From: Icerya purchasi
Lineage: Eukaryota > Arthropoda > Insecta > Hemiptera > Monophlebidae
Direction: 5' to 3'
NCBI GenBank assembly: GCA_039619475.1
Contig: CM077115.1
Span: forward strand, 299,337,756-299,401,755
DNA length: 64,000 nt
The position numbers were made by a program, and so were the translations under genes. The notes under the pieces are model-generated. The model made no database searches. It was given only the letters and a program-made list of their open reading frames with translations, and was not told the DNA's origin. Shown piece after piece: positions 2,595 to 52,790 of this stretch. Each line of letters opens with the position of its first letter. Within the stretch, counting starts at the first letter, position 1.

Positions 2595-2640
2595 AACACG
2601 AGCCTTTCGGGAACACACTTGTGCAAGTACAATAATACTC
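2595..2640 (-). repeat. 46-bp inverted repeat, left copy
   Basis: Reverse complement of 4477-4522 with one mismatch. It includes ACTTGCACAAGTGTGTTCCC in its reverse complement. Confidence 0.85.
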
Positions 2641-11157: not shown

Positions 11158-11531
11158 TCAGATTCTGAGGCGATCGGAGATAGAAAGTATAAAGGAAAGA
11201 AGGAGGGGAACAACGGCTGGAGATGGGAAGGAAAGGATAAAGGAAGCATTGAAAGGGGTAGGAAGATCTAACGCCAAAAGTTCGGCGTATAGATGAGAGC
11301 ACTGAGGAAAAAGAGCAGAGCATTCGAAAAGGATATGGTTGGGGTCACATATAAAGGGAGGATCAGTTGAGTGGAGAGGGCAAAAGGGAGAAGGTGAAAG
11401 AGAAAAAGAAAAACGAGAAAAGGGAAGGAGGGAATGGTCAAGCCTCAGTCTGATTAAAGAAACAATAGCCGAGCGCCGAGAAAAAGGAAGAAATTGGTAC
11501 CAAGGCTGTGAATTGGAAGTAGGCTGTAGGA
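11158..11531 (-). pseudogene. B ORF2, C-terminal piece (separated by element C)
   Basis: This is the last part of B's endonuclease-reverse transcriptase polyprotein. It carries the C-terminal segment found in related elements: RxxxxSLIRLRLDHSLLP and a late Cys/His zinc-binding-like patch (CPLH...CDPNHILFEC), followed by an alanine/leucine-rich end. The same region is seen at 49041-49300 in element D and at 60195-60680 in fragment E. It is in frame with the 26042-29417 piece once C and one GTAGGA copy are removed, so the split is caused only by C. The first in-frame ATG on this side uses codons from C and is not meaningful. Confidence 0.9.
11526..11531. repeat. 6-bp target-site duplication of element C, left copy
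   Basis: GTAGGA is directly repeated at 26042-26047. It joins B sequence outside to the AGTAGATAG terminus of C inside. Removing C plus one copy restores the reading frame of B's ORF2. Confidence 0.9.
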
Positions 11532-11683
11532 AGTAGATAGAAAACCTGCGTTCTGTGATAAGAACCAATCAGGAGCCAGTATTTTGTTCCGTGACCATGC
11601 CCCCTTTTACTCAACTAATCAAGAGTCAATACTCAATCAAATGACACACCGTTTTTACATCAAACCATCCAGTAAGAGTTCAA

Positions 11684-12095
11684 CGAAAATGCTTCTCTCA
11701 TAGCGCTACATACAAATGCTAACGCTGTCAATCAGTTGACCAATGCATGTCTTTACTTGTACGTAAATTATCGTTATTCGGTAGCGACTGGTTTTGGAGG
11801 ATTATGCACACAATGATGTATATATGGTTACGAGCGTCCATATACATATGTAAAATTAGTTATTACCATTATTGATTTTTGTTGTTATCAATGTTATCAG
11901 TGGTCAGTCTGCAGGAATCGCGGTAAAATACAGGTTTTCGCCGCTCCGGTATTTCTAGGAATCGCGAAGATTTTCGTTCGGTCAGTTGAGTAAAACTTTT
12001 CTTTGTCCGATACATTATGTAGGGGGGTAAGTCTATCTCACACATCGCAAAAGCGAAAATGCTTCTCTCATAGCGCTATACGTAAATGCTAACGC
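11684..12095 (+). repeat. Pair of 42-bp direct repeats in arm
   Basis: A stretch containing AAAATGCTTCTCTCATAGCG occurs at 11684-11725 and again at 12053-12095 with about three mismatches. The pair is mirrored in the right arm. Its role is unknown. Confidence 0.75.
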
Positions 12096-12164
12096 AACCG
12101 TTGAAACCGGATTTTAACGTTCTTATAATTTCTATTCCACTCTATGCCTTATTACGGAACCATA

Positions 12165-12305
12165 CCCTACATGTACACACTAACACAAACATACACTCAT
12201 ACTCAAAGTCCATGACTACTTTATTCAATGCGCATATGTAACCAACTATTCCTGACGGAATGACATTTTTCTGACGTAATATTTCCACTGCCACAACCGA
12301 TTTAA
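12165..12305 (+). promoter_or_regulatory. Promoter-like module, copy 1
   Basis: The block shares with 14640-14766 an ACACTCAAAGTC-like region and a core of TGACGTAA followed by ATTTCCACTGC and CAACCGATT. TGACGTAA is a bZIP (CREB/ATF/PAR)-type site. The other copies precede genes; no ORF clearly follows this one, so it may be a relic of a lost gene. Mirrored at about 25265-25410. Confidence 0.4.
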
Positions 12306-12570
12306 ACCAAGTAAAAGCGAATGCATCGTTCTCGCACACATGTCGATCGTTAGTGATATCGTATTTTTTTTTTTTAAATTAACCAAAGTATAATATTTAA
12401 AGCATAAAACTAACCTGAGCTCCCCATTCACCCGCTTTATACCATTCAAATGTATTTTTTTATTTTTTCCATGCCTAAGCATTATAAAAATTGGTCTAAG
12501 TATATTTCTCATTTTCTACGGTTCCAAAAATTTTTTCTTTATTCTCCGATCGTTACAAAAGTGTACTGAC

Positions 12571-12883
12571 TAGTGATGGGAAACTTCGAAATGTTTCATT
12601 CGAATTATTCGATTGTTCGATAACTTCGAATGCATTCGATTGTTCCACAGTTGCATTCGAAATGTTATTTCATTCGTATAATTCATTCGTATTCACATCA
12701 ATCATTCAAATTAAAATCATTCGAATCAAAATCATTCGAATTAAAATCATTCGAATCAAAATCATTCGAATCAAAATCATTCAAATTAAAATCATTTGAA
12801 TCAAAATCATTCGATTGTTTTTTTTTTTTTGACGATTGTTGATTGTTTCGATTGTAAAAACATTTCTAAATCGCACATTACTA
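12571..12883 (+). mobile_element. hAT-type MITE, copy 1
   Basis: It begins TAGTGATGGGAAACTTCGAA and ends with the inverted match TCGCACATTACTA, terminal motifs typical of hAT non-autonomous elements. Flanking 8-mers are GTACTGAC (left) and GCACTGAC (right), one mismatch. The interior has 15-bp tandem repeats TCATTCGAATYAAAA at about 12705-12810 and a poly(T) run. The reading frames across it encode only repetitive Ser/Phe/Lys. Confidence 0.8.
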
Positions 12884-13166
12884 GCACTGACAGATCACAC
12901 GCTTATATCTACCATAGTGTTAGCCACCACGAAAGCGAACCATTCGATCCCGTGCACACTCTGCTCTCGATAGTTTCCCTATCGTTCATAATAATTATTC
13001 AAAGCCTAAGTATCATAGAATTAGTGCAAGTATATTTATTATTTTTTCTCACTTACGATTATTTTTCCGTCCATAAGTATTATAAAATTAGTCTAAGTAT
13101 ATTTCTCATTTTCTATGGTTCCAAAAATTTTTCCTTATTCTCCGATCGTTACAAAAGCGCACTGAC

Positions 13167-13460
13167 TAGTGATGGGCAACTTCGAAATGATTCATTCTAA
13201 TTATTCGATTGTTCGATAACTTCGAATGCATTCGATTGTTCCACAGTTACATTCGAAATATTATTTCATTCGAATAATTCATTTGTATTCACAACAATCA
13301 TTCGAATTAAAATCATTCGAATCAAAATCATTTGAATTAAAATCATTCAAATTAAAATCATTCGAATCAAAATCATTCGAATAAAAATCATTTGATTGTT
13401 TTTTTTTTTTAACGATTGTTGATTGTTTCGATTGTAAAAACATTTCGACGCACATCACTA
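13167..13460 (+). mobile_element. hAT-type MITE, copy 2
   Basis: Starts TAGTGATGGGCAACTTCGAA and ends GCACATCACTA, with flanking GCACTGAC and GCACTGGC. It has a shorter array of the same 15-bp repeats. It arose with its flanks by the tandem duplication rather than by an independent insertion. Confidence 0.8.
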
Positions 13461-14639
13461 GCACTGGCAGATCACACGCTTATATCTACCATAGCGTTAG
13501 CCACCGCGAAAGCGAACCATTCGATCCCGTGCACACTCTGCTCTCAATAGTTTCCCTATCGTTCATAATAATTTTTCCAAGCCTAAGTATTATAGAATTA
13601 GTCTAAGTATATTTATTATTTTTTCTCACTTACGATTACTTTTCCATCCGTAAGTATTTATGTGTGTTTTCCCTGGTTCTAAAAATAAATCTATCGATGT
13701 CTCGCCTCTCAATGAATGCGCACGCATCATTCTCGCGCACGTGTCATTCATTCGTGTTACCACTTTTTTTCAAAATTAGTCCAAGTATATTTTATTATTT
13801 TTCTCATTACGATTATTTTCAGTCCGTAAGTATTTCTGTATGTTTTCCGAGGTTTTAAAAATTAATCTCAAAAGACATCCAGACTGTTGTGAAAGCACAC
13901 TAACCATTCCCGCACAGATTCTACATTATACGTTACTCTATTACGAGTTCTTCAAAAATTGATTCAAATATTTTTTTCATTTTTTTTTTTCAATCCTAAA
14001 AATTCATTCTTTCTACCTCCGCCCCTCCCAGCTAAAATTACCGATCTTTCATAATCTTTATTTATTTTATCGATTCTAAAAATTAATCAATGGTTCACTC
14101 GAAAGCGTACCGTACATTCCCACACACATATCTTCTATCACGAATTTCCCTATTGATCATGAACATTTTTTCAACGTTAGCCACAATAGCATATCACATT
14201 GGTCTCGCATACGCACCACATGCAGTTCTATATGTTTAATTTTCTATTAACGATCTTTATTTTTTTGTACAGGTATTAATTTTTCCTACACAGTCATGTC
14301 ATCATATACACTTAACATTGTCAAAATAATTTTAACCTTTCGAGAAAGAAAAATCTCCGATCAATAAAAAGTATTTATTAACATCACAATTATTTTTAAT
14401 ATTAATCGTTTCGCTACAAACATAATTTTTTTTATTTAATAAACTCATCAACATCATCAATCGTTTCAAGACATTATTGTTTCAAACATCAATCCCTCTT
14501 TTCCAAAAATTGATAACCTCTGCAGGTACATATCTCGTCGTCGCAACAACCTTTACCTGCATGACTCGTATACCTTCAAGACCACTTGTACATTGCTCGC
14601 ACGCTATTTACCATTATTCGGTACAAGAATATTTTTCAC

Positions 14640-14770
14640 ACTCCCTCACATATACGCATACACTCAAAGTCCTCGATTACTTTGTTTGTATACAAATATA
14701 TTCAGCTTTCTCCGACGGAACAACATTTTTCTGACGTAACATTTCCACTGCAACAACCGATTCAAAGGTA
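14640..14770 (+). promoter_or_regulatory. Promoter-like module, copy 2, upstream of the 339-aa ORF
   Basis: Contains TTTCTCCGACGGAA, then TTTTTCTGACGTAACATTTC and CACTGCAACAACCGATTC. It lies about 210 bp before the ATG at 14975. Between them is a pyrimidine-rich tract ending in AG at about 14944, which could be a 3' splice site of a 5'-UTR intron. Function is inferred from repetition of the module upstream of the paralogue at 17409. Confidence 0.45.
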
Positions 14771-14974
14771 GCTAATGAGATAGACTATCGAACGGAATCA
14801 TTCAAACGGTCAGTATTAGTTTTATGTTAAACATGTGTATTTTGTCGTATCTGTGTTCACGCATTATTAAAAAATTTACGTCAACGTTAAAGAAAATAAT
14901 TTCCTATGTTTTTTCTCTTTCTTTTTCTCTGTATTTTTTTTTAGTGAAAAGTTTGAAATACATATTATTCAATC

Positions 14975-15994
14975 ATGAACGCTAATATAGTTAACGTAAG
15001 CAGCAACTCAAAATCAATTAAGGACGCTGAATTTATTCAGAATTTATTTGCAAGTGATAGCGACTCGCATACGTCTTCGTCACTTCAATTACCGCAATCA
15101 GATGGTGGTTATTCTTCAACAGAATCAACATCTTTTGCACATAAAATCGTTGGTCCAGTATTATTGTCAGATCAGATGGATATAGCGGAATATTTTGTAG
15201 ATTTCAGTGTCCATAAGGATTCTGATTATGGTTTTCTAGTAATCGAACTAGCGATGATTGATATGTCTGGCGGGAGGTGTTTACATACGCTATACAAACC
15301 AAGCAGAGCATGGTCTGCATCAAAAATGCCTCATTTACAATGCTCTTCCGTGAGTCATTACTTGAAAAACCCCTCATTATTTCCCTGTCGGGAAGAAATA
15401 TTCATGGCACGTGATGTATTTACAATATTGTCCGAAAAACCGAAGGCTCGCGTATATATTTTAACCACTTATGCAAAACTTATATTATGGGAACTTAACG
15501 AAAAGTCTGAATTGTTGCGTGACTTGGACTACGAACTCGTTAATATGGAGAAAGTCTTTCGAGTACCTAGTATTGATGATTTATATCAAGAATACTCTGG
15601 TATAAGCAATCTGGTAACTTGTAAGCACCATTATGAGAATGATATTTTTCATTGTGCGGTGAAAAATGTTATGGTGATGAAGACATGGCACGATCACGTT
15701 ATCCATCCGCTGAAGCTTATGAACAATCTCAATATAAATGATTTAAGCCAGTTATTAATTACAGCCACCAAAGAAATGATAATTACATTATTTCCAAGTT
15801 GCATCGGGGACATTTATATATTTTTACCAGACAGATTAAAACAGGATGATACGATAAAATCATTTCTACCATGCTACGATCACGAACATGATAAAGAATA
15901 TTATATCGATGGTGATACATTACACAGGAGTACTCGAAATTGTGTCAAAGTAAAAGATTGCGACGACTGTCAACATTCATTTCATACGGATTAA
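14975..15994 (+). CDS. 339-aa element C protein, left-arm copy (exonuclease-fold-like, probably inactive)
   Basis: Intact ORF. Residues 1-60 are Ser-rich and low in structure. From about residue 69 there is a segment with YFVDFSV, then LVIELAMIDMSGG and LHTLYKPSRAW, which resembles the first strands of a DEDDh/RNase H-like exonuclease, although the usual DxE is DxS. Near residues 228-236, HCAVKNV resembles the last DEDDh motif (H-x4-D) with Asn for Asp. The C-terminus has KDCDDCQHSFH, a possible metal-binding Cys/His patch kept in the paralogue at 17409-18237. I recall similar uncharacterised proteins from ants, wasps and aphids but cannot check. The fold assignment is an inference; an active nuclease is doubtful. 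AATAAA at 16001 may serve as polyadenylation signal. Confidence 0.8.
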   Translation: MNANIVNVSSNSKSIKDAEFIQNLFASDSDSHTSSSLQLPQSDGGYSSTESTSFAHKIVGPVLLSDQMDIAEYFVDFSVHKDSDYGFLVIELAMIDMSGGRCLHTLYKPSRAWSASKMPHLQCSSVSHYLKNPSLFPCREEIFMARDVFTILSEKPKARVYILTTYAKLILWELNEKSELLRDLDYELVNMEKVFRVPSIDDLYQEYSGISNLVTCKHHYENDIFHCAVKNVMVMKTWHDHVIHPLKLMNNLNINDLSQLLITATKEMIITLFPSCIGDIYIFLPDRLKQDDTIKSFLPCYDHEHDKEYYIDGDTLHRSTRNCVKVKDCDDCQHSFHTD

Positions 15995-16239
15995 AAATTC
16001 AATAAAAGACGCGGAATTTGAAAGATGGAGTTGTCTAGATCCTACGGAAGTTGAATATGAACATAACAATTACCTTTCAATGTACCAAAGTCAACTGTCG
16101 CAGTATGTATAATATGTGAAATAAAACCATATTTTTTCTTTTACTCGCATTTTTATTTTTATTATTTCAAAATATTTTACATTGTTTCACATAAATTATA
16201 ATGTATGTATATATGTATGGAATTTTAATATGTAATAAT

Positions 16240-16439
16240 ATACATTTCCTACATTTTATTTTATTTCATGGTCATATAATTACTTTAGAATTATTTAGAT
16301 ACATCGCAGACATTATAGTACGGAACACATCATTTATTATTTCATTCTATTTCAATTAATATGTTGTATGGATGAAATCGAATCAATTTATGTAACTGTT
16401 TATTTACATTTAAATAATCTTTTTCTTTTTCTTTTTCTT
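16240..16439 (+). other. Inner end of left arm, AT-rich, ending in (CTTTTT)n
   Basis: Non-coding, without motifs other than the pyrimidine hexamer run at the arm/spacer junction. Confidence 0.6.
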
Positions 16440-16449
16440 GATTTCTTGG

Positions 16450-16925
16450 GACTGCAAATATGGTGAAATTTATTTAGGAAAAGGAAGTAAGCAAATAAAA
16501 TTTCCTTACACCCCTGGACTCATTCATTTACTAATGGTATCGCATATAGATGAGAATAAATATACAAAATAATGATTTAGATCTATATAAATAAATACTT
16601 GAGTGTACTGGAGCTCATTTACGTGCTACTGGTGTATTAAAGGGTACTACACTTCCTAAATATAGAAAAATAATACATCCAATGTTTCAGTCTAATGGTT
16701 CAAGTGTAAAAATTTACTATGATGGAGCAAAGACTAAGCATTGTGCTGATGGCGGAGTATGTCATGAAGATACATTGATCGATTATTCAGACGATCCTAA
16801 TGAATTGGTTGAATGATTATTGTTATCGCATACATCTAAAAAAGTGTGAAATGCTGGTGTAGATGATGAAATTCGAATGATTGAGGAAAAGTTGGTTGAA
16901 GAAGGATATATTCAGTTAAGTTAGT
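16450..16925 (+). pseudogene. Broken YTPGL...DDPNELV family gene (DUF8207-like)
   Basis: Frames joined by eye but not open: the first gives YGEIYLGKGSKQIKFPYTPG, then LIHLLM and a stop at about 16572. After a shift, DLDLYK and a stop, then LECTGAHLRATGVLKG, PKYRKIIHPMF, DYSDDPNELVE, a stop, and DDEIRMIEEKLVEEGYIQLS. The order (G-rich, YTPGLxxLL, D-L-Y-K-x-IL-x-T-x-AH, DDPNELV, DEIxxIEELxxxG) matches a family of uncharacterised insect proteins I recall as DUF8207. No N-terminal half is present: the gene is cut off at the arm boundary (16439). At least two stops and one frameshift make it a pseudogene. Function of the family is unknown to me. Confidence 0.7.
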
Positions 16926-17109
16926 AGTTTTTTATGTTATCTTATTAGTGATGGAAGACGATATATTAAAATTTAAAAATGAATTAATGTTCTCATTTAC
17001 CATCAATAATGATTATATTAAAAGTCTATCCCTGCATGTACATAGCTGCACGTTAAGATCGTCTGATACAGCTGTTAAAGCCAGATCTTGACCCTTACTT
17101 ATATGTAAG

Positions 17110-17270
17110 ATGTCATGTGTACATGCATACACTACCACAAATAAAATGTATATGTATGTACAAGTTCTTAACAATTTCATTCATCAATGTATGCAATCAA
17201 CTTTCTCCGTTTGAAGGGTATTTTTCTGATGCAACATTTCATTGAATGCATCTAATTCAAAAGTAGACAT
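17110..17270 (+). promoter_or_regulatory. Promoter-like module, copy 3, upstream of the paralogue
   Basis: Diverged copy of the 14640-14770 module: CAACTTTCTCCG, TTTTTCTGATGCAACATTTC, and a TCTAATTCAAAAGTAG end. The core has changed to TGATGCAA, a C/EBP-ATF-type half-site pair. It lies about 150 bp before the ATG at 17409. Confidence 0.45.
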
Positions 17271-17408
17271 AATGCCAACTCTCTGAATAACTGTATTCAC
17301 TCGCTTGTTATTAGTTTCACGAATTAGTGTTCTTCACACGTTTAAATTTTAGTTACTATTAAAAGTTTTAGTTTTTTTTTTCTTTTCTCTTTAATAAGAA
17401 TTGTAACA

Positions 17409-18237
17409 ATGATAGTAGCACGTGAGGTAATTATCGATATTCAATGTTTTAAATATGATAATGATACATACATCATTAAGGAACTTTCAATAATAAGTAT
17501 CGATGGTGAAATTCAATTTCATAGAATTTACAAGCCTCCATTCGAATGGGATGTATTATCCAATAATAAAAAACAAGAAAACATGAGGATAATTCAAAAC
17601 TGTCATTCAATTCCGTGGAATGCAGGAGATTACAATTATGAATCTATTACCGGTGATATAGAAAATGTGTTGGAAGATTTGGAACCATTGAATATTTACG
17701 TTAAAGGAAATGAAAAAATTACCACTATATGGATAAAACTATTTGAAACATCACTTTCAAGATTCAAGATGATTAATTTAGAAAAAGAATTCGGTATACC
17801 CAATTTAGGGAAATTAAATAATATGTATAAAGGAATATCAAGAGTTGTAAAATGTGATGCACACACGGAGAAAAACATACATAGGTGTTCATTGCAGAAT
17901 GTATATGTGATGATGAAATGGTACGATGTAAATGTTAGACCTATTATCATTAGTAAAATATTCTACGTACGACTTGATGCAAAATATTACTGCAGAGATA
18001 TTAATTAATGTATGCCCTCAAAAAATTTGCGATTTTTACAATAAATTACCTGTAGCACTGAAGAATGATCGATGTATCAAACGCTTCTTACTGTGTTTTA
18101 AACATCATAGCTATGATATTCCAGATTCCTTTCCACTCAGTGGAGTACATCTCACCTTAATCAAAGATTGTCCGCAATGCAACCATGCAAGTTTGTTCGA
18201 ATTCCAACATAACCCGATCAAAGGAGCCAATTTGTGA
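17409..18237 (+). pseudogene. Frameshifted paralogue of the 339-aa element C protein
   Basis: Frame 1 runs 17409-18008 and frame 2 continues to 18237; the switch is near 17930-17950. Matching blocks to the 339-aa protein: IDIQCFKYDND and ELSIISIDGE against FVDFSVHKDSD and ELAMIDMSGG; RIYKPPFEW against TLYKPSRAW; NLEKEFGIPNL against NMEKVFRVPSI; HRCSLQNVYVMMKWY against HCAVKNVMVMKTW; and KDCPQCNH against KDCDDCQH. It lacks the Ser-rich N-terminus. Like its relative it has D-x-Q instead of D-x-E and Asn in the last motif. Divergence is large (about one third identical by eye), so the duplication is old. Confidence 0.75.
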
Positions 18238-18512
18238 GCATTGTATGAATCATAATCTTGTAATTTTTCCATCTTTAAATTTTTTGTGATATTTATTTAT
18301 TTTTTAAATTAATTTTCTTTTATTCTTGTTAATCGTTTGTAAATATATTACATGAATTATATATATATTTTACATTTCATAATTTTTTTCGCGTGCGAAT
18401 GGAATAATAAAAATAACTTTTTCTTTTTCCTTTAAATGTAAATATTATCTATATTCAGCTTCAATAATGAGTCTAAACACGTTTTTTATTGTAAAATCAT
18501 ATAGGTTCTAAT

Positions 18513-18956
18513 TAGTGATGGGCAACTTTGAAATGATTCATTCGAATTATTTGATTGTTCGATGACTTTGAATGCATTCAATTGTTCCGTGGTTGCATTC
18601 GAAATGTTATTTCATTCGAATAATTCATTCGTATTCACAACAATCATTCGAAATGTTATTTCTCTCGGAAGAATCTAGTCGATGTTTAACGAATACTTCA
18701 TTCGTTTGTGTTCGGATAGTTTCGGTTTTTATTCGAATAATTCATTCATATTCGCAACAATCATTCCAAATGTTATTTCTCTCGGAAGAATCTAGTCGAT
18801 GTTTAACGAATACTTCATTCGTTTGTGTTCGGATGGTTCCGGTTTTTATTCGAATAATTCATTCATATTCACAAAAATCATTCGATTGTTTTTTTTTTTT
18901 TTTGACGATTATCGGTTGTTTCGATTGTAAAAACATTTCGAAATCGCACACCACTA
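18513..18956 (+). mobile_element. hAT-type MITE, copy 3, in spacer with exact 8-bp duplication
   Basis: Begins TAGTGATGGGCAACTTTGAA, ends AATCGCACACCACTA, and is flanked on both sides by GTTCTAAT (18505-18512, 18957-18964). The exact 8-bp duplication fits hAT transposition. It carries an internal tandem duplication of about 117 bp (units starting near 18651 and 18768) and no 15-bp array. Confidence 0.85.
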
Positions 18957-18964
18957 GTTCTAAT

Positions 18965-21125
18965 ACATGTACATAAGAAAATAATAAAAAACGAGTAACA
19001 AATAAAAAAAAAATAAACAGAGATGATATCAATATGGTGTATTTAGAATTTGCATCATCTAATACCTCAAGCATTGTATGTAGAATATAAAAATGAGTAA
19101 AAATTAAGAAAAATGGTGTAAAAATAGCTATAATTAGAGAGAGTATGAATAAATTTTTAAAAAATAGCAAAAAAAAAACCATGTTATTTTCTGGCGGTGT
19201 TTGAAATTAAAATTTCTACATGTATTTAATGTGATAGTTGACGCAGGTGCGAAAATATGTTTAATTTTTTCAAAATTTAATTCTAAAAAACATTCGTGGA
19301 AAAGTAAATAAATTAAGTAAACGTAGAAATTAGTAGGCATCATATAAAAATTAAAACTTATGATGGAACTTAGAATATAGATGAATGAAAAAAAAAAAGT
19401 TGTAATTGAATAGATTAATGAAAAAAAAAACATAATAGTCTTTGTGTTTACGTTTCTTCTGTTTTTTTTTTTTTCGTTATGTTTAATGCATCATATTGCT
19501 TTTTATGTATAGCCTCTTCACTCTCTTGTTTTCAAAAGTATACTCTTCTGTCAAGTACTTCTTTAAAAAAACTTTCCGAATTTTAGCATTTATCATATTA
19601 TATAGCATGTACAATAAATTAACAGATTCCATATTGGAGTGTAAAGAAAACTATTTCAAAAAATCTCTGAAATAAAAAAATAATATAAAGAAAAAGAAGA
19701 TTGTGAATCAAAGAAAAAAAACAAACAAAAAACAGTGATTCTTCATGATATTTTTACTCCCCACCCTGGGGACATTTATTTTTTGTAGAAGTTAAATATT
19801 GTTGTAAAAGCAAGTATGATGTTATTTTGTATATTATGGGGTGAAAAAAAAAAATTAATAATGCGTTAATCATTGATTTAAAAATTATATTATCATACAT
19901 TTCCGGCATCCGATATTTGCATGCGCTTGTATAGAAAGCGTGTATACACATATATACGAATAAAATATAATACATCCATGGTAACTTGCATATTTCTGCT
20001 GTTGTCTAAAACCGTTAGATTATTAGGTAAAAGATTGAGTAAGATAAATACGATTTATTTTCCATAACACATTGTTTAAAGAAACAAAAATAAAAAATAA
20101 AATAACATGATCGATTTAATTTGAATTTAGCAATATTTTTAGAACTAACATGAATTTTTTTTTGTAAAACGCGAAAGAAAAAAAGAAAGAAAACAACGGT
20201 AAAATTTGTTAGTTTTACGGATAAATCAGTATAGTTGTATTTAACAATGCCTGTGCAGCTAATAATCTTTTGTCATTCATTTAACCGTGCGCTCACACAC
20301 ATGCCCACATACACTTATACCGGTCTTAATGGTATGTGTATTATAATCAACCATCTCATTCATCTAGTTTTAAAGCTAATTTTCGGCTTTTTTTATAAAA
20401 CTGCCTCGAAAAGGATGCTAACGGATATTTAATGTCTGCCACTGCAGTGCAGTTCTGCAATAATAGAGGTACATAATTTATCTCACTCTCACTCTCTTAT
20501 TCTATAAGTGGATCTCTACCTGTCGTTGCGATTTAACGGTTGTTTCTTATTAGCCATTTCGCACATTTCAAGCATACATACACACACATGTTCACACATG
20601 TTTACACATATTCACACATATTTACTCACCCTTACGCGCATGCAGTGTCGATACATGATCTGCAGGTGCTTCTATAATGACGAAGACTATTCGTAGACGT
20701 TCCTGTAGATTTCGAAATATTTTCGTATTGAAAAATTTTAAATGTAAAAAATGAAAAATCTTAGAACGAAATATTGTATAAAAAATTTCCTTCATAATCT
20801 GTATTCCAAATAATAAGACTCGTACGTTTTCATCAGCTCCCTCCCTCACGTGTAAAAATTTAGCTTTTTATTTTCTCTCTCTGTTGTATCAGTCTATTTA
20901 AACGATATGAATAATAATGAATTTTTTTTTTTAAAGATAATAAGTGTAAACTGAACGTTTTACGGAAATTTCCATCAAAGTTTGAAATCTATGTATCAGG
21001 TTTTGACCGTTTTTCAAATAAAGTCGTAGATTTACCATTCATATCGAGGAAAAAACAAAAAAATAATTTTTTTCATACTTGTATATGTAAGCATATACAC
21101 GCATGCATATGCTGAGAGATAAAAA
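18965..21125. other. Right half of element C spacer, no recognisable gene
   Basis: Very AT-rich with many poly(A)/(T) runs. Open frames here (up to 99 aa) are Phe/Ile/Tyr-rich translations of AT-rich DNA. No polymerase, integrase or capsid motif is visible in any frame I read. Confidence 0.55.
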
Positions 21126-21570
21126 AAGAAAAAGAAAAAGAAAAAGATTATTTAAATGTAAATAAACAGTTACATAAATTGATTCGATTTCATCCATACA
21201 ACATATTAATTGAAATAGAATGAAATAATAAATGATGTGTTCCGTACTATAATGTCTGCGATGTATCTAAATAATTCTAAAGTAATTATATGACCATGAA
21301 ATAAAATAAAATGTAGGAAATGTATATTATTACATATTAAAATTCCATACATATATACATACATTATAATTTATGTGAAACAATGTAAAATATTTTGAAA
21401 TAATAAAAATAAAAATGCGAGTAAAAGAAAAAATATGGTTTTATTTCACATATTATACATACTGCGACAGTTGACTTTGGTACATTGAAAGGTAATTGTT
21501 ATGTTCATATTCAACTTCCGTAGGATCTAGACAACTCCATCTTTCAAATTCCGCGTCTTTTATTGAATTT

Positions 21571-22590
21571 TTAATCCGTATGAAATGAATGTTGACAGTC
21601 GTCGCAATCTTTTACTTTGACACAATTTCGAGTACTCCTGTGTAATGTATCACCATCGATATAATATTCTTTATCATGTTCGTGATCGTAGCATGGTAGA
21701 AATGATTTTATCGTATCATCCTGTTTTAATCTGTCTGGTAAAAATATATAAATGTCCCCGATGCAACTTGGAAATAATGTAATTATCATTTCTTTGGTGG
21801 CTGTAATTAATAACTGGCTTAAATCATTTATATTGAGATTGTTCATAAGCTTCAGCGGATGGATAACGTGATCGTGCCATGTCTTCATCACCATAACATT
21901 TTTCACCGCACAATGAAAAATATCATTCTCATAATGGTGCTTACAAGTTACCAGATTGCTTATACCAGAGTATTCTTGATATAAATCATCAATACTAGGT
22001 ACTCGAAAGACTTTCTCCATATTAACGAGTTCGTAGTCCAAGTCACGCAACAATTCAGACTTTTCGTTAAGTTCCCATAATATAAGTTTTGCATAAGTGG
22101 TTAAAATATATACGCGAGCCTTCGGTTTTTCGGACAATATTGTAAATACATCACGTGCCATGAATATTTCTTCCCGACAGGGAAATAATGAGGGGTTTTT
22201 CAAGTAATGACTCACGGAAGAGCATTGTAAATGAGGCATTTTTGATGCAGACCATGCTCTGCTTGGTTTGTATAGCGTATGTAAACACCTCCCGCCAGAC
22301 ATATCAATCATCGCTAGTTCGATTACTAGAAAACCATAATCAGAATCCTTATGGACACTGAAATCTACAAAATATTCCGCTATATCCATCTGATCTGACA
22401 ATAATACTGGACCAACGATTTTATGTGCAAAAGATGTTGATTCTGTTGAAGAATAACCACCATCTGATTGCGGTAATTGAAGTGACGAAGACGTATGCGA
22501 GTCGCTATCACTTGCAAATAAATTCTGAATAAATTCAGCGTCCTTAATTGATTTTGAGTTGCTGCTTACGTTAACTATATTAGCGTTCAT
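21571..22590 (-). CDS. 339-aa element C protein, right-arm copy
   Basis: The predicted protein is identical over all 339 residues to the one at 14975-15994, with the same upstream pyrimidine tract and promoter-like module (about 22797-22925). The two genes point toward each other across the spacer. Identity at the protein level with almost no nucleotide change outside means recent insertion or arm-to-arm conversion, not necessarily selection. Domain remarks are given under the left-arm copy. Confidence 0.8.
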   Translation of the reverse strand: MNANIVNVSSNSKSIKDAEFIQNLFASDSDSHTSSSLQLPQSDGGYSSTESTSFAHKIVGPVLLSDQMDIAEYFVDFSVHKDSDYGFLVIELAMIDMSGGRCLHTLYKPSRAWSASKMPHLQCSSVSHYLKNPSLFPCREEIFMARDVFTILSEKPKARVYILTTYAKLILWELNEKSELLRDLDYELVNMEKVFRVPSIDDLYQEYSGISNLVTCKHHYENDIFHCAVKNVMVMKTWHDHVIHPLKLMNNLNINDLSQLLITATKEMIITLFPSCIGDIYIFLPDRLKQDDTIKSFLPCYDHEHDKEYYIDGDTLHRSTRNCVKVKDCDDCQHSFHTD

Positions 22591-22796
22591 GATTGAATAA
22601 TATGTATTTCAAACTTTTCACTAAAAAAAAATACAGAGAAAAAGAAAGAGAAAAAACATAGGAAATTATTTTCTTTAACGTTGACGTAAATTTTTTAATA
22701 ATGCGTGAACACAGATACGACAAAATACACATGTTTAACATAAAACTAATACTGACCGTTTGAATGATTCCGTTCGATAGTCTATCTCATTAGCTA

Positions 22797-22925
22797 CCTT
22801 TGAATCGGTTGTTGCAGTGGAAATGTTACGTCAGAAAAATGTTGTTCCGTCGGAGAAAGCTGAATATATTTGTATACAAACAAAGTAATCGAGGACTTTG
22901 AGTGTATGCGTATATGTGAGGGAGT
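22797..22925 (-). promoter_or_regulatory. Promoter-like module, right-arm copy of module 2
   Basis: Mirror of 14640-14770; TTACGTCA at 22827-22834 is the core. It precedes the right-arm 339-aa ORF. Confidence 0.45.
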
Positions 22926-24104
22926 GTGAAAAATATTCTTGTACCGAATAATGGTAAATAGCGTGCGAGCAATGTACAAGTGGTCTTGAAGGTATACGAG
23001 TCATGCAGGTAAAGGTTGTTGCGACGACGAGATATGTACCTGCAGAGGTTATCAATTTTTGGAAAAGAGGGATTGATGTTTGAAACAATAATGTCTTGAA
23101 ACGATTGATGATGTTGATGAGTTTATTAAATAAAAAAAATTATGTTTGTAGCGAAACGATTAATATTAAAAATAATTGTGATGTTAATAAATACTTTTTA
23201 TTGATCGGAGATTTTTCTTTCTCGAAAGGTTAAAATTATTTTGACAATGTTAAGTGTATATGATGACATGACTGTGTAGGAAAAATTAATACCTGTACAA
23301 AAAAATAAAGATCGTTAATAGAAAATTAAACATATAGAATTGCATGTGGTGCGTATGCGAGACCAATGTGATATGCTATTGTGGCTAACGTTGAAAAAAT
23401 GTTCATGATCAATAGGGAAATTCGTGATAGAAGATATGTGTGTGGGAATGTACGGTACGCTTTCGAGTGAACCATTGATTAATTTTTAGAATCGATAAAA
23501 TAAATAAAGATTATGAAAGATCGGTAATTTTAGCTGGGAGGGGCGGAGGTAGAAAGAATGAATTTTTAGGATTGAAAAAAAAAAATGAAAAAAATATTTG
23601 AATCAATTTTTGAAGAACTCGTAATAGAGTAACGTATAATGTAGAATCTGTGCGGGAATGGTTAGTGTGCTTTCACAACAGTCTGGATGTCTTTTGAGAT
23701 TAATTTTTAAAACCTCGGAAAACATACAGAAATACTTACGGACTGAAAATAATCGTAATGAGAAAAATAATAAAATATACTTGGACTAATTTTGAAAAAA
23801 AGTGGTAACACGAATGAATGACACGTGCGCGAGAATGATGCGTGCGCATTCATTGAGAGGCGAGACATCGATAGATTTATTTTTAGAACCAGGGAAAACA
23901 CACATAAATACTTACGGATGGAAAAGTAATCGTAAGTGAGAAAAAATAATAAATATACTTAGACTAATTCTATAATACTTAGGCTTGGAAAAATTATTAT
24001 GAACGATAGGGAAACTATTGAGAGCAGAGTGTGCACGGGATCGAATGGTTCGCTTTCGCGGTGGCTAACGCTATGGTAGATATAAGCGTGTGATCTGCCA
24101 GTGC

Positions 24105-24397
24105 TAGTGATGTGCGTCGAAATGTTTTTACAATCGAAACAATCAACAATCGTTAAAAAAAAAAACAATCAAATGATTTTTATTCGAATGATTTTGATTC
24201 GAATGATTTTAATTTGAATGATTTTAATTCAAATGATTTTGATTCGAATGATTTTAATTCGAATGATTGTTGTGAATACAAATGAATTATTCGAATGAAA
24301 TAATATTTCGAATGTAACTGTGGAACAATCGAATGCATTCGAAGTTATCGAACAATCGAATAATTAGAATGAATCATTTCGAAGTTGCCCATCACTA
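24105..24397 (-). mobile_element. hAT-type MITE, copy 2 in right arm
   Basis: Mirror of 13167-13460, present by duplication of the arm. Confidence 0.8.
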
Positions 24398-24680
24398 GTC
24401 AGTGCGCTTTTGTAACGATCGGAGAATAAGGAAAAATTTTTGGAACCATAGAAAATGAGAAATATACTTAGACTAATTTTATAATACTTATGGACGGAAA
24501 AATAATCGTAAGTGAGAAAAAATAATAAATATACTTGCACTAATTCTATGATACTTAGGCTTTGAATAATTATTATGAACGATAGGGAAACTATCGAGAG
24601 CAGAGTGTGCACGGGATCGAATGGTTCGCTTTCGTGGTGGCTAACACTATGGTAGATATAAGCGTGTGATCTGTCAGTGC

Positions 24681-24993
24681 TAGTAATGTGCGATTTAGAA
24701 ATGTTTTTACAATCGAAACAATCAACAATCGTCAAAAAAAAAAAAACAATCGAATGATTTTGATTCAAATGATTTTAATTTGAATGATTTTGATTCGAAT
24801 GATTTTGATTCGAATGATTTTAATTCGAATGATTTTGATTCGAATGATTTTAATTTGAATGATTGATGTGAATACGAATGAATTATACGAATGAAATAAC
24901 ATTTCGAATGCAACTGTGGAACAATCGAATGCATTCGAAGTTATCGAACAATCGAATAATTCGAATGAAACATTTCGAAGTTTCCCATCACTA
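24681..24993 (-). mobile_element. hAT-type MITE, copy 1 in right arm
   Basis: Mirror of 12571-12883, present by duplication of the arm. Confidence 0.8.
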
Positions 24994-26041
24994 GTCAGTA
25001 CACTTTTGTAACGATCGGAGAATAAAGAAAAAATTTTTGGAACCGTAGAAAATGAGAAATATACTTAGACCAATTTTTATAATGCTTAGGCATGGAAAAA
25101 ATAAAAAAATTAAAAAAATACATTTGAATGGTATAAAGCGGGTGAATGGGGAGCTCAGGTTAGTTTTATGCTTTAAATATTATACTTTGGTTAATTTAAA
25201 AAAAAAAAATACGATATCACTAACGATCGACATGTGTGCGAGAACGATGCATTCGCTTTTACTTGGTTTAAATCGGTTGTGGCAGTGGAAATATTACGTC
25301 AGAAAAATGTCATTCCGTCAGGAATAGTTGGTTACATATGCGCATTGAATAAAGTAGTCATGGACTTTGAGTATGAGTGTATGTTTGTGTTAGTGTGTAC
25401 ATGTAGGGTATGGTTCCGTAATAAGGCATAGAGTGGAATAGAAATTATAAGAACGTTAAAATCCGGTTTCAACGGTTGCGTTAGCATTTACGTATAGCGC
25501 TATGAGAGAAGCATTTTCGCTTTTGCGATGTGTGAGATAGACTTACCCCCCTACATAATGTATCGGACAAAGAAAAGTTTTACTCAACTGACCGAACGAA
25601 AATCTTCGCGATTCCTAGAAATACCGGAGCGGCGAAAACCTGTATTTTACCGCGATTCCTGCAGACTGACCACTGATAACATTGATAACAACAAAAATCA
25701 ATAATGGTAATAACTAATTTTACATATGTATATGGACGCTCGTAACCATATATACATCATTGTGTGCATAATCCTCCAAAACCAGTCGCTACCGAATAAC
25801 GATAATTTACGTACAAGTAAAGACATGCATTGGTCAACTGATTGACAGCGTTAGCATTTGTATGTAGCGCTATGAGAGAAGCATTTTCGTTGAACTCTTA
25901 CTGGATGGTTTGATGTAAAAACGGTGTGTCATTTGATTGAGTATTGACTCTTGATTAGTTGAGTAAAAGGGGGCATGGTCACGGAACAAAATACTGGCTC
26001 CTGATTGGTTCTTATCACAGAACGCAGGTTTTCTATCTACT

Positions 26042-26047
26042 GTAGGA
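26042..26047. repeat. 6-bp target-site duplication of element C, right copy
   Basis: GTAGGA, identical to 11526-11531. The base pair before it closes the CTATCTACT terminus of C. Confidence 0.9.
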
Positions 26048-29000
26048 GGAGGTAGAAAGAGGAGCGATTGGCAAAAAAGGAAGGGTAGATGTCAACCCAC
26101 AGTCTGGTATGGAGACTTGCGGAGAGGAAAAGGATGTCTGAGGCAGGAAAATGCGGAAGGAATGGACCATTGAGAGACGCTGAGCGAGCTAGGAAGTCAG
26201 CTGCTTCGTTGCCCTCAATGCCAGAGTGGCCAGGAACCCATAAAAAGTCAATAAGGATAGAACGTGCTAAGCGCAAGTTGGAGATAGAGGCACGAACAGA
26301 AAGAATAATGTCATTAGTCGAGTGGGAAGGAGGAGAAGAGATAGCTTGCAGCACGGATTTGGAATCAGTAATAATGAGAAACTTACAGATCCCTCTTGAA
26401 GAGGAAATAAAGGAGACAGCACGGAGAATGGAGACTGCTTCAGCAGAAAAAATGGAACAAAAGGAAGGAAGTTTGAAGGATTCCGAGTGATTAAGCGAGG
26501 GGGCTGTAAAAGCACCGCCCACCCCGCAATCATTTTTGGAACCATCAGTGAAAATTTTTACATGACGGGGAAATGAAGAATTTAATATGTGGACATATTC
26601 ACTGACCACTGTGCTCTGAGGAGTGGAGTTAGCACGAAGAGGAAGAGAGGAGAATGAGACGGGAAGACATGTACTATTGAAATCAAAAGAAAAGTAAGGA
26701 AGCTTATTGCGGGAAAAGACATAAGGAGAGAACTTAGAGACCCGAGCAGCTATGTGCGCAAGAACCGGGATTTTGTGAGGAACGAAGCGCCAGTGTTCAT
26801 TGATATACAGATAGGAAGAAATAAGTTTAGATGAAGAGATCGGGAGGCGTTTAATTAGAAAACGGTAACCAAGCAGAGATCTGCGGATTAACAGGGGTTT
26901 AATATTAGATTCAGACAAAATGGCAGGAATGGAAGAAGACTTTAGGGCCCCAATGCAGAGCCGAAGACAGGAGTTTTGGATTCTATCAAGTTTGCGCAGG
27001 AGGGAGTTTGAGGCATTGCCGTATAAGAAGGAACAGTAGTCTAGTTTGGAACGAATGATGGATTTGTAGAGAATTATGAGAATATATGGATCACCGCCCC
27101 ACTTGAGAGGACATAAGGCTTTCAGGAGATTTAGTCTCTTAAGACAAGATATATAAAGGTACTCGATATGTTCTTGGAAAGAGAGTCGACTGTTTAGGAA
27201 AAGACCAAGATAGCATATGGAATTAACAATAGGAATAGGATAGTTGGAGGAGATGATGTTTACCAGAGCACGATTATATGGGCGGAGGGAGAAAATAATA
27301 GAAGAAGACTTGGAAAGAGAAAGAGAAAGAAAAGCACTGGAGAGGGAACTACTGAGGACTGATAGAGAACAATTAATCTCCTCGTAAGCTGTAGCTAGCA
27401 CGTCTGAAGTGGAGTAGATAAGGATATCATCCGCAAAAAGGAGAGAAGAAGAAGGAATGCGAAGAGTAGCGATATCAAGGAGATAAATATTAAAAAGAGA
27501 AGGACTAAGACAGGAACCCTGAGGCAAGCCGCGGTAACAACGTCTGATTGTTGAAAAGGAGGGAACAGAAAGAAAAAGAGATCTATTTTGGAACAGATTA
27601 AGAATAATGGTAACGAGAATAGGAGGAATATTGAGGGAAATGAGCTTAGAAGCCAGTGAAGGAAGATGAACATTATCAAACGCAGATGCGACGTCGACGA
27701 ATGTGGCAATAGTAAACTTTCTATCTAGGAATGATTTGTAGATGTCCGATAGAAAGGTACTAATGCAGTCGATTGGACCAAGACCAGGGCGAAAACCAAA
27801 CATATTGGGAGGGAGGAGATTGTTATGCTCCAGCCACCAGACTAAACGATTGTTGATTAAGCCTTCGAAAAGTTTTCGAAGACAAGAGGCGAGGGAGATA
27901 GGTCGGAAAGAAGACTGGTTTCTTTTAGGAATAGGAATGATTATAAAATCATTCCAGGATTTAGGAGTGTGACCAGAGATTAGAAAGGAGTTATAGATAG
28001 CTAAGAGAGAATGCAACGAGGAAGAGGAGAGATTTTTAAGGATTGGATATGAGAGGCCATCTAGTCCGGGGGTGGAGTTAGTGGATTTGTTAAGAACGGA
28101 TAGGAGCTCATCGTAACGAAAAGGAGAGGAAAGAAAATGGTCTTCAGAGGTAGAGTAGTAAGAGGGGGAACTAATTTCTTCAAGAGAAGGAACATAAGCG
28201 GGCGAGATAAAGTCCAAAAAGGAATGAAGATGTGGCAACGCAGGAGTAGAATGAAGAGGGCGCTCGGAGGAGGGAAATCTAAAGGCCCTAGCTAACTTCC
28301 AAATTTGAGAGAAGGGCGTATCTCTAGAAAATGAGAAACAGAAACTTCTCCAAGAATTCCTCTTGGCAGCCTTTAGGATGCTACGGGCTCTAGCGTTAGC
28401 TTCTTTGTGAGCTAGGAAGTTAGACATAGAAGAGCAGGAGCGAAAAGTTCTAAAAGTGTCGGTACTCTTCCTGAAGGCTGCTTTACACTCGTCATTCCAC
28501 CAGAGTGAGGAGGCAGCAGAAGTTTTACGACAGTTATTAGAAGGGAAGGGAGGGGATGAGAGGGAAAGAGCAGAATAGAGAGACTGGGTGAAAAGGTTGT
28601 ATTGAGATAGAGGATCGGAATCAGCCTGAATAGGAGAGAGAGAGGAATCGACTAAAGAACGAAATTTGCCCCAATCAGTTTTGGAGAGAAGCCAATGAGG
28701 AGAATGAAGAGGTTTGAAGCATGAAGGAGGTAGGACGTCATTAAGAGTTAGAACAATAGGAGAGTGATCACTGCCAAAAGTACCATCAAGAGTTCTCCAA
28801 GAGCAGTTTAGACCAAAATTGGGAGAAGAGAAAGAAAGATCGACTGCACTAGGAGATGAAGGGTTTTTGAAGCAGGTAGGAGAAGAATCATTAAGGAGGA
28901 AGAGGTTATGATTTAGGATGAAGTTTTCAAGGATAGAGCCATTGCTGTCGTGACCAGAGCAGCCCCAGAGTGGAGAATGGGCATTCCAATCACCCCCAAT

Positions 29001-29417
29001 GATGAATGGATTTGAAAGAGTCGAAAGGAATGGGTGAAGGGGAAGCTGAGCAAGACTAGAATTTGGTGGATTGTACACACAAGCGATGTGAATAGGGGTA
29101 GGAAGGAGATTTGATAGAGAAATATGTGCCATATTAGGGAGATTAGGATAAGGAGGAGGAAGGAAGGAAATACTGTGCGACTGGTATGGTAAGTCGTTTC
29201 TAACAAGAATAGCCACTCCACCATACCCGTCTACACGATCAGAACGTACTATGAAGAAGTCTTTGAAGTGGATTTTTGAAGTGGATTTTAACCAAGTTTC
29301 AGACAACAATGCTACTTGAATGTTGTAGAGGTCTAATAGCCCCTCTAACGCTTGTTTATTTGCATGTATGCTACGACAGTTCCACTGAAAAATATTTAAA
29401 GAATTATTCTGAGACAT
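26042..29417 (-). CDS. B ORF2: endonuclease-reverse transcriptase-RNase H, interrupted by element C
   Basis: Domains in order: AP-type endonuclease at about residues 1-230 (NIFQWNCRSI near 8, SETWL near 40, GDWNAH near 141, SDHSP near 215); reverse transcriptase at about 440-760 (FRPISLAS, FVDVASAFD, GLPQGSCLSP and the catalytic FADD near 660); RNase H at about 945-1080 with all four acidic positions visible (TDGSK, AEAV, TDSKS, GNEAAD). No stop or frameshift over 1125 codons, so B was young when hit. The reading frame then runs into C, whose first bases supply a TAG. The missing C-terminus is at 11158-11531; the whole would be about 1,250 residues. Start chosen at the ATG nine residues before the endonuclease motif. 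Confidence 0.92.
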
Positions 29418-29893
29418 GTGGTTTAGGAGGTGGAGAAAGGTAAGGAATGAGTGTTATAGGAAAAGGAATGCAAGGAGGAATGGAATCGTAACAATAAAAA
29501 TAATTTAAGGCGATGAAAGAAAAAAAAAAATGGGCTCGCGGAATCTTGGTTATGTGCCAGTTTAGCAACCTTCAAGTTTAATTGCGGCCAAATTCGGAAC
29601 AGAGTGAGCGAAAGCAAGAATAGAATAACCTGCACGAACTGGTGTAGGACCAGTTTGTAGGCCTCCTTCTGCTTAACGCCATCACCAACGAGATGATAAT
29701 TTTCTGGAATGAACCGTAGCGTGGAAAATTCCATATGTAAAGCGTGCAAGTAAGCAATTGTACTGAACTGTAAGAAATACAGAAAGAAGAAGAAGGGTAT
29801 TGAAGGGTAGAAGGAGAAAAAGAAGAAAAAGAAAAAAAAAAGAAAATAAAAAATAAAGGAAGTAGAAAACAAGAGAAACAAAAATAGGTTGAA

Positions 29894-30740
29894 TTATTTG
29901 AAGTTAACGCTGTTAGACAACAAGGATGAAAGACTGTCGATGAAAGAAGAGGACGAAGGTATATTGTAAGATGCAAGAAGCTCCATAATAGCAGCAGAGA
30001 GACTGGAGATGGTTGAAGTGAACTCTGTGGGAGAGGGCGAAGTGTTGGAAAGAGGAACAGATGAGGGACAAGCAGGCAAGAGTGGATTAAAAGAGGGGGA
30101 AGAGACTTTATTTAGAGCCCATCCAACTGAGGGTGAATGAGGGTGATAAGAAGGGATAGAAGGAAATTGGGGGAGCGGTTTATGATGCGGTTTAGACTTG
30201 TGAAATTTATGGAATGTTGGAGATTTTGGACGAGGAAGAGAGGGAACCTTAGAAGAGTTGATGGACATGTTTTGAGAAGGAATGGGGGCTGCAGCCCGGT
30301 TGGCATATGAAACGGCTTGAGTTACAGAATTAGACGATTTGATCTTGACGGCTTCATGGAAAGAGATATTTTCAAAGGCCATGATCCTTTTTATATCTTT
30401 TTGTCTTTGCCACTCTGGACAGCGACGATCTGAGGAAACATGGGAACCTTTACAGTTGCGACAGAAAGGAAGTTCCTGTAGATTGGGGCATTCCGAGAAG
30501 GAGTGTTTGGATGCACAATGGGAGCAGATGGAGTGGGAGCTGCGACAATTGCGTGCAATATGTCCGAAAAGAGAACAATTGGAACACTGGGTGGGAGAAC
30601 GAATGCTAGGAGAGACTGAGAAGCGAAGTCCATATATGGATACGAATTGAGGGAGGTAGGATTTGGCGAATTTCAGTTCGACACTTCTAGTCGGAATTTT
30701 AGAACCTTCTGAAGAGCGGAGAATACGTCGTAATGAAATG
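29894..30740 (-). CDS. B ORF1, 5'-truncated: CCHC zinc-knuckle RNA-binding protein
   Basis: Open for 282 codons without a start because the element is truncated. Three zinc knuckles stand near the beginning (C-x2-C-x4-H-x4-C, then CSHCASKH...C, then CRNCKGSH...C), followed by CPEWQRQKDIKRIMAFE and a Pro/Ser-rich tail. The same block is in D ORF1 (52902-54620), where the full N-terminus is present. Such ORF1 proteins bind element RNA and act as chaperones in the ribonucleoprotein particle. The first in-frame Met (30382) lies after the knuckles and is not the true start. Confidence 0.85.
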
Positions 30741-30753
30741 ACAACTATTTTAA
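30741..30753. repeat. 13-bp target-site duplication of element B, right copy
   Basis: ACAACTATTTTAA, identical to 11067-11079; it borders B's truncated ORF1 on one side and A sequence on the other. Confidence 0.9.
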
Positions 30754-31576
30754 CTTATTCCATAAATATAACAATACTAATAAACCTAGCATAATATTTA
30801 ATTAAGAGTAGTATATATATGCATATTACAATAGCATATCGCGTAATATGCATCTGTACACCGGTACGTGCAGACTGCTTAATATTTCCAGATCGAAAAT
30901 CCTCTGAAAGAAACTTCAAAACCAGGAAGGATAAAGTGTCAAAACCAAAATCCATAAATAAAAAACCATCAAAGAGTAGCGAGATATAAAACGTAACTTG
31001 ATCTTCAATCTTTGCACCATTCCTTCAGCCATTCTTGCACCTCCTTTTTCCACACACCAACTTTTTTTCCCCCCTCTAGTATATCATTAGGGATTGTACT
31101 TATTTAAATTAATTAAAATTGAGTCATCAGTGTTATCAATTCGCAGATTTACACTATGGGGATAAATGTAATATGTATTACTTTGATTTCCCTGGATGGT
31201 AATTTTATATTTTTAACATTAAATTCTAGTAATCTATAATAGAAATAATACATATCTTAGGGGGGACATTTTATCGTTTTCCTTCCATACATAATTGATC
31301 CAGAGTCGTTTTTCTTCCAGTAGGGGAGTATAAGTTCCAAACACCTCTTCTGTATTTTACTTATTTTGTTTATTTCTGTTTTCTTAGCCTCACATAATAT
31401 ATTTTAATTCCGTATAAAATTCTAGACATTATTATTTAATTATATAGTATATACGTAGTGTTTAATACTACCTGCTTTATTTTATATAAAGCTGGAATTG
31501 TATGTCTTATTTTCGAGTTTAACTTTGAATGTGTTTTTCCAGTTCAAGGATTTATCAATATATATATATATATATA
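30741..31576 (-). mobile_element. Element A, main part: non-LTR retrotransposon 3' fragment
   Basis: Continues the A sequence from 11079. About 31000-31560 is collinear with 63190-63760: shared stretches include GATCTTCAATCTTTGCACCA and TTCAGCCATT. Minus-strand frames give the RT thumb (SRILYGI, QKRCLK-like) and the C-terminal NTYYIYP...NLRIDNTDD block, with stops. Collinearity with the other copy is lost at a (TA)n run near 31560-31576. RT-like motifs further right (KWALDKRL, FKYLGII, 32465-32700) may be A's upstream part beyond an insertion of about 0.9 kb, but I cannot fix the join. Confidence 0.75.
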
Positions 31577-52000: not shown

Positions 52001-52790
52001 AATCTGTAGGAAGAGGAATCCAGGAACGAACGAAAATCAGACCAATTAACCTTTGAAACGTTCCAGCTAGGAGAACGGGATTCTTTTTTTACATGAGAGG
52101 AGGAAGTCCCATGAACGGACACAATGATAGGAACATGGTTACTACCAAAGGTTCCATCAAGGGTATTCCATACACATTTCAGGCTTAAATTAGGAGAGGA
52201 GAAAGTTAGGTCTATAGAACTGTAGGAATTTTGGTTTTTGAAATATGTAGGAGAACCGTCGTTGAGAACCACAAGGTTGTAGTTTGAGAGTAGAGTTTGA
52301 AGGAAGGAACCATTTCTATTTAGTGACGAACTACCCCAGGCGGGAGAGCAGGCGTTCCAATCCCCGCCTATGATAAATGGGTGAGGTAAGGAGTCAAGAA
52401 GGGAGGAAAGTGAAAGATCCTTTAGGTTACACAGGGGAGGAATGTAGACAGATACAAGATGAAGGGGATGAGAAATATTAGCGAATGTGTGTGAGATAGA
52501 AATATGAACAAAGTTGGGAGAGGAAGAAGGACTAGAGCCACCTGGGATGTCTAAATTGTGGGAAGAAAATGGAATGCCGAACCTAATGAGGATAGCTGCA
52601 CCACCATAACCATCTTCGCGATCTGATCTAATTACATGAAAACCCCTAATTGAAAAAGTTGATGATTTCGGAAGCCATGTTTCAGACAACAATGCTATAC
52701 TTATATTATGTAAATTTAGCAAGCCTTCTAAGGATTCGCCCGGATGCTACGACAGTTCCATTGAATAATATTAAGTACAGGCGTCATTTA
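49041..52790 (-). pseudogene. D ORF2: endonuclease-RT-RNase H with several frameshifts
   Basis: Endonuclease part in 51781-52722 (SETWLPKS, GDWNACSPAW, GSNHVPI); its first residues (NIIQWNCRSIRAN) sit upstream in another frame near 52740-52790, so a frameshift lies at about 52735. RT part in 50759-51871 (FRCISLAS, FVDIYSAFDS, GLPQGSCLSP, FADDILL). After a shift near 50755 the thumb continues in 50112-50744 (FRYLGIFLNSRLSF, SKLDFCCFLYG). RNase H and C-terminus in 49041-50012 (FTDGSKM, YAETLALL, SDCKSAL, GNEKAD, then CPLC...CDSDHVFFEC). At least four lesions make it inactive, while each block is otherwise well kept. Confidence 0.88.

Follow-up and report, generated by a model that had tools for sequence, protein, structure and literature searches.

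A Maverick-like family of nearly perfect 20-kb palindromes in the genome of Icerya purchasi

The element and its insertion site

The window, the whole stretch analysed here, comprises 64,000 nucleotides of the genome of the scale insect Icerya purchasi (assembly GCA_039619475.1, contig CM077115.1, positions 299,337,756 to 299,401,755, forward strand). It holds a 14,510-bp insert (11532-26041, ends AG...CT) consisting of two mirrored arms and a spacer, flanked by a target-site duplication (TSD) and carrying one intact open reading frame (ORF), ORF A, in each arm (Table 1). The exact inverted ends, the GTAGGA on both sides, the intact gene per arm and the near-identical 4.9-kb arms that an initial annotation had picked out are all present in the sequence; the left arm departs from the reverse complement of the right by one substitution and two indels, of 9 and 1 bases (99.8% identity by BLAST). 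The element is best regarded as an asymmetric copy of a high-copy, ~20-kb, nearly perfectly palindromic, Maverick-like family of this insect. That plan can be read directly from the copies; a snap-back mechanism of propagation is the account of it that, on balance, we favor.

The element sits in the last part of a long interspersed nuclear element (LINE) with endonuclease, reverse transcriptase and RNase H domains, pieces of which lie at 26037-30754 (-) and 11158-11531 (-). A continuous LINE reading frame is restored when the flanks are joined minus one GTAGGA and, as judged by eye, a further LINE piece at 60189-60680 (+) has a frame that runs on across the spot equivalent to the insertion site. 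This is therefore a real insertion with a duplicated target. The uninterrupted piece is the 3' piece of a third LINE, and a second, broken copy of a related LINE occupies 49041-54626 (-) (both by eye).

Table 1. Features of the palindromic element, in positions of the window
Feature	Position	Strand	Remarks
Left TSD, GTAGGA	11526..11531	.	sequence
Left arm, 4,908 bp	11532..16439	+	99.8% identical to right arm; starts AGTAGATAGAAAAC
Arm-internal repeats	12527..13658	+	blocks at a spacing of 577-596 bp, 93-94% alike; 15-bp tandem repeats inside
ORF A, 339 residues	14975..15994	+	intact; fold predicted, at low confidence, as DnaQ-like (RNase H-type); no homologous sequence found beyond the Icerya genome
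Spacer, 4,686 bp	16440..21125	.	inner arm, unpaired; matches both arms of the 20-kb copy E1, 98.4-98.7%
ORF C remnants	16447..16813	+	third gene; two frames; no Pfam match
ORF B, first part, 199 residues	17409..18008	+	diverged ORF A paralogue, frame broken in the window
ORF B, second part, 101 residues	17932..18237	+	different frame
117-bp tandem repeat, 2.4 copies	18610..18885	+	related to the arm repeats
Right arm, 4,916 bp	21126..26041	-	mirror image of left arm
ORF A, second copy, right arm	21571..22590	-	protein identical
Right TSD, GTAGGA	26042..26047	.	sequence

A family of palindromes

The assembly searched has 1,103,370,081 bases, including two large sequences of 601,656,059 and 497,304,701; the published genome report gives 1,103.38 Mb, a scaffold N50 of 601.66 Mb and two chromosomes, from HiFi reads (PMC11183206). 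With the first 600 bp of the element as query, the best 40 of 1,200 candidates, which were scored, are 95-100% identical. The exact 19-base terminus occurs 56 times, and its reversed control not at all. Two terminus searches combined, the second by exact pattern, yield at least 80 termini, with 24 facing pairs and 32 unpaired; 13 of the facing pairs are spaced 18-21.5 kb.

Fifteen other copies (E1-E15) were examined at their ends, and eight of these in their middles. Every one of the 16 copies, the window's included, has a 6-bp TSD abutting AGTAGAT...ATCTACT, and the 16 target sites comprise 15 different 6-mers (TATATA occurs twice). Thus the termini and the TSD length, which the initial annotation had wanted compared among copies, are shared throughout. 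In 14 other copies, 27 of the 28 ends carry exactly the 14-bp sequence AGTAGATAGAAAAC.

Inverted arms of at least 4.9 kb are found in 12 of the 16 copies. The five 19-20-kb copies with the middle read are nearly pure palindromes, with arms of 9-10 kb and a centre of 0-1.5 kb. In E1 a 7.7-kb self-alignment across the centre (99.5%) resolves no spacer; the spacers of E11, E8, E4 and E9 measure only 268, 613, 857 and 1,494 bp, so that their arms must be ~9-10 kb long. Among the other copies, E3 (16.0 kb) has a spacer of 348 bp, E6 (12,647 bp) has arms of 5,832 bp and a spacer of 983 bp, E5 (15,380 bp) has arms of 5.1 kb and a spacer of ~5.1 kb (the last two spacers by subtraction), and E13 and E15, read at their ends, have arms of at least 5.9 kb. 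In copy E2 a LINE with a 1,268-residue ORF is lodged between the palindrome arms.

Arm sequence of other copies matches the spacers of E3, E4, E8, E9, E11 and the window element, in both orientations for all or part of their length; E4, E8, E9 and E11 have, close to the centre, a single-copy stretch of ~280 bp. Both arms of E1 align to the window spacer, over bases 2-3741 and 2-3127 of 4,687 (middle piece, 98.7%), and the remainder aligns in the end pieces of E1 (98.4-98.5%). The window copy is therefore an asymmetric derivative of a larger palindrome, and its spacer is unpaired arm sequence rather than a separate core. In many other copies the unit is larger, ~20 kb long and nearly all palindrome. 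The initial annotation proposed that the repeats had expanded; in this copy the change ran the other way, the arms being shortened, relative to the family, from ~10 kb to 4.9 kb. Its alternative suggestion, an undescribed class of giant palindromic element, was the better half of the guess.

Likeness between arms

Arms were compared over the gene region, which is complete in 20 of 32 arms, and over the first 920 bp, usable in 29 of 32. The partner arm of the same copy is the nearest neighbor (ties counted) in all 18 comparisons of the gene region and in 22 of 26 comparisons of the terminal 920 bp. Within copies the arms are 99.0-100% identical; between copies the means are 96.2% for the ends and 98.0% for the gene region. 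The two ends of a copy always carry the same variant at terminal bases 15-19 (CTGCG or GTTAC; 14 of 14 copies), and an ORF A stop is shared by both arms in E1, E3 and E8.

Fold-back chimeric reads can yield palindromes, and misassembly of the palindrome had been named at the outset as one of the findings that would overturn the annotation. Such an assembly or read artefact is hardly credible here, since the TSD-bearing outer flanks are unrelated beyond the TSD in the four copies compared (8, 20, 13 and 10 of 54 positions identical in E1, E9, E11 and E6, respectively) and the arms carry differences in all seven copies compared. The outer arms of E1, E3, E4 and E13 differ by 13-40 substitutions and indels and those of E9, E11 and E15 by one to five substitutions, with gaps in six of the seven.

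Alternatively, the likeness of the arms might stem not from copying before insertion but from later gene conversion inside real palindromes. Conversion between palindrome arms is known in other systems, and within-copy identity is slightly lower over the first 920 bp (99.0-100%) than over the gene region (99.4-100%), although the two figures come from different sets of copies. Yet the palindromic plan is common to copies at different sites, and the palindrome is therefore older than the insertions; moreover, arm divergence varies by copy, as expected from insertion age. As an explanation of the likeness, gene conversion is unlikely.

The genes in the arms

A genome-wide search with ORF A gives 3,557 first-look candidates. 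The best 119, which were scored, are all at least 96% identical and 117 of them lack a stop, although a list restricted to the best candidates favors intactness. Facing pairs within 30 kb account for 104 of these 119 loci (52 pairs, median spacing 12.7 kb, equal bit score in 45), while neighbors within 30 kb include no divergent and six same-strand arrangements. ORF B, which is 24% identical to ORF A (E 3e-18), is open in E8 and E11 and broken in E1, E2, E4, E5 and E9. Of ORF C, a 119-residue piece is open in E1, E4, E8 and E11; a possible likeness of it to a Maverick-associated insect protein found no support in Pfam and was set aside.

ORFs A and B seem to be kept by selection. The ratio of nonsynonymous to synonymous polymorphism (pN/pS) is 0.49 for ORF A across 10 copies, with E4 left out because of an indel, and 0.375 for ORF B across 4 copies, with E1, E4 and E9 left out on the same ground; the underlying sums share branches and include copies with stops. 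No homologue of either was found among 5.8 billion predicted proteins or in viral contigs; PDB sequences gave nothing beyond weak, unrelated rows, and Pfam no match at its curated cut-off. As modelled, both look like DnaQ-fold proteins: ORF B has 59 Foldseek matches at E<=1e-3, the best among the 50 listed being DnaQ-type exonucleases, and the predicted fold of ORF A weakly matches avian sarcoma virus (ASV) integrase and DnaQ folds, with low confidence.

Might these proteins mobilize the element themselves? In a new, self-standing class, ORF A or B, with its RNase H-type fold, would be the mobilizing nuclease and a Maverick helper would be unnecessary. The preponderance of stop-free loci among the ORF A loci scored speaks for this, as does the match of ORF A to ASV integrase as well as to DnaQ folds. 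Against it stands the preference of ORF B for DnaQ-type exonucleases. So do copies in which both arms carry a disrupted ORF A or B, for these seem either to have transposed with the gene already damaged or to have had their arms homogenized afterwards. We consider such autonomy quite improbable.

Maelstrom, a protein of the Piwi-interacting RNA (piRNA) pathway, has a DnaQ-like fold, as ORFs A and B may have, and Maelstrom chains appear among the Foldseek matches, at ranks 4, 7 and 15 for ORF A and 19 for ORF B. In our own reading, E25, H38, H66, C149, H152 and C160 of ORF B reproduce the order E-H-H-C-H-C of the residue set described for Maelstrom in PMC2628886; in contrast, the second H is missing from ORF A. 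Maelstrom identity by sequence is unsupported: at E<=10 none of 11 proteins matched PF13017 (Maelstrom), shuffle tests were without signal in three cases out of four (best 40 of 2000), a further search had no Maelstrom row among the 50 matches listed, and a genome-wide search for the family gave three pieces at one place only, read as a host gene. That presumed host Maelstrom gene lies, in exons, at C1:38848205-38862933.

A putative Maverick connection

A genome-wide search for polymerase B (PolB, PF03175) gave 133 matches from the best 91 of 638 candidates, reduced to 89 loci. Twelve of these form six facing pairs, 2.2-6.4 kb apart, and two neighbor pairs within 60 kb are divergent. One of the facing pairs belongs to a PolB-bearing palindrome of 19,146 bp at C2:167988700-168007845, with AGTAGT...ACTACT ends and TSD ATCGTC; its arms (8,888 and 8,889 bp, 99.86-99.94% alike) each carry a long PolB frame and enclose a spacer of 1,369 bp. 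The best 40 scored termini of its terminal family make 18 facing pairs, 16 of them spaced 17-20.2 kb. The pieces compared have no protein or DNA similarity to the window family. Elsewhere, at C1:427202338-427223292, two facing PolB pairs (four loci) stand ~12 kb apart and may mark two neighboring palindromic Mavericks, and at C1:561105324-561147760 two termini that pair up in the family of the PolB palindrome lie 3.6 kb from a window-family pair.

A number of observations weigh against the favored reading. The window element, scanned in six frames over 11532-21121, has no Pfam match (E<=0.1) to PolB, integrase, capsid, ATPase or protease; this agrees with the initial annotation, which saw no polymerase B, integrase, ATPase or capsid genes (how well Pfam represents the Maverick proteins of insects is uncertain, and integrase in other copies was judged by ORF listing alone). 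None of the 89 PolB loci, drawn from the best 91 of 638 candidates, is within 25 kb of 80 window-family termini, and the search for an autonomous partner with the same termini came up empty on that count. For these reasons, the putative link of the window family to Mavericks is one of ends, TSD and shared plan, not of genes. Even in the terminal family of the PolB palindrome, listed PolB is found in one of the 18 facing pairs, the PolB palindrome itself, so that PolB may be a rare cargo there too. The family's end, AGTAGA, differs from the (AGT)2 that is commonest in vertebrate Mavericks according to PMC8097293. As for the palindromes themselves, the exact centre of E1 is imperfect, four of the 16 copies (E7, E10, E12 and E14) have collinear arms of merely 0.7-2.7 kb, another copy is closer than the partner arm in 4 of 26 end-region comparisons, and identical arms could also stem from gene conversion after insertion. 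Of the original label, non-autonomous Polinton-like, the 6-bp TSD, the AG/CT ends and the absence of polB from the element fit; its implied partner did not turn up among the 89 PolB loci.

A proposed snap-back mode of replication

We propose, as the simplest account, that these are non-autonomous Maverick-like elements that replicate as snap-back molecules. The mobile form would be a single self-complementary DNA with the same end twice. A protein-primed polymerase of Maverick type, supplied in trans, would replicate it from that end and each arm would consequently be a copy of the other; an integrase, also of Maverick type, would recognize the AGT...ACT ends and insert it. Where sequence close to the fold is lost or left uncopied, the outcome would be an asymmetric copy whose "spacer" is unpaired, like the one in the window. 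The Maverick-type identity of the enzymes is what we infer.

Possibly, and more tentatively, a distinct class of element is at hand, in which the inherited unit is a self-complementary palindrome of ~20 kb that has one end in duplicate: Maverick-like viruses would have left integrated snap-back genomes, which became fixed and turned into a successful transposon lineage. This single insect would have two or more such families, one encoding RNase H-fold (possibly Maelstrom-like, anti-piRNA) proteins. Literature searches around palindromic and non-autonomous Mavericks brought up no description of such elements in the titles and abstract openings listed. Long palindromes are usually unstable, and despite this a 20-kb palindrome is here a thriving, high-copy mobile element. 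Should the snap-back route be true, its copies would constitute a genomic record of Maverick-like virus replication and defective genome formation, which are otherwise hard to study. The mirrored genes also make fold-back transcripts possible, with a bearing on host RNA silencing.

Comparison with known systems

Palindromic adenovirus genomes are similar to snap-back forms. For adeno-associated virus (AAV), PMC8235507 describes snap-back genomes of symmetric and of asymmetric form, and they resemble the Icerya elements in the duplication of one end, in the occurrence of both forms and in their mirrored genes. The AAV forms are subgenomic virus particles, whereas the Icerya palindrome is integrated and present in high copy.

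The very long, internally repetitive inverted arms and the variable middle also recall Foldback, Galileo and Tetris. The family could on that ground be of Foldback type, or belong to the cut-and-paste DNA transposons more widely (Foldback, Galileo/P, Mutator-like), with its transposase lost. It is the TSD that chiefly weakens this proposal: Foldback, Galileo/P and Mutator-like elements have TSDs of 7-10 bp (7-9 bp for Foldback and Galileo), in contrast with 6 bp in all 16 copies. The ends are AGT...ACT, the arms, up to ~10 kb long, hold an intact gene, the window element has no transposase match (Pfam, E<=0.1), and a PolB element of the same plan exists in the same genome. A Foldback-type origin is improbable.

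Vertebrate Mavericks, according to PMC8097293, have (AGT)2//(ACT)2 ends and a 6-bp TSD, as does the PolB palindrome of Icerya; intact ones measure 12.7-24.6 kb, with terminal inverted repeats (TIRs) of 46-1,447 bp. The window family is like Mavericks/Polintons in its 6-bp TSD, AGT...ACT ends, TIRs and size, which falls within the vertebrate range. It differs in that the window element is without a polB, integrase, capsid or ATPase match and in its proportions: the arms are 5-10 kb long and full copies are almost wholly palindromic.

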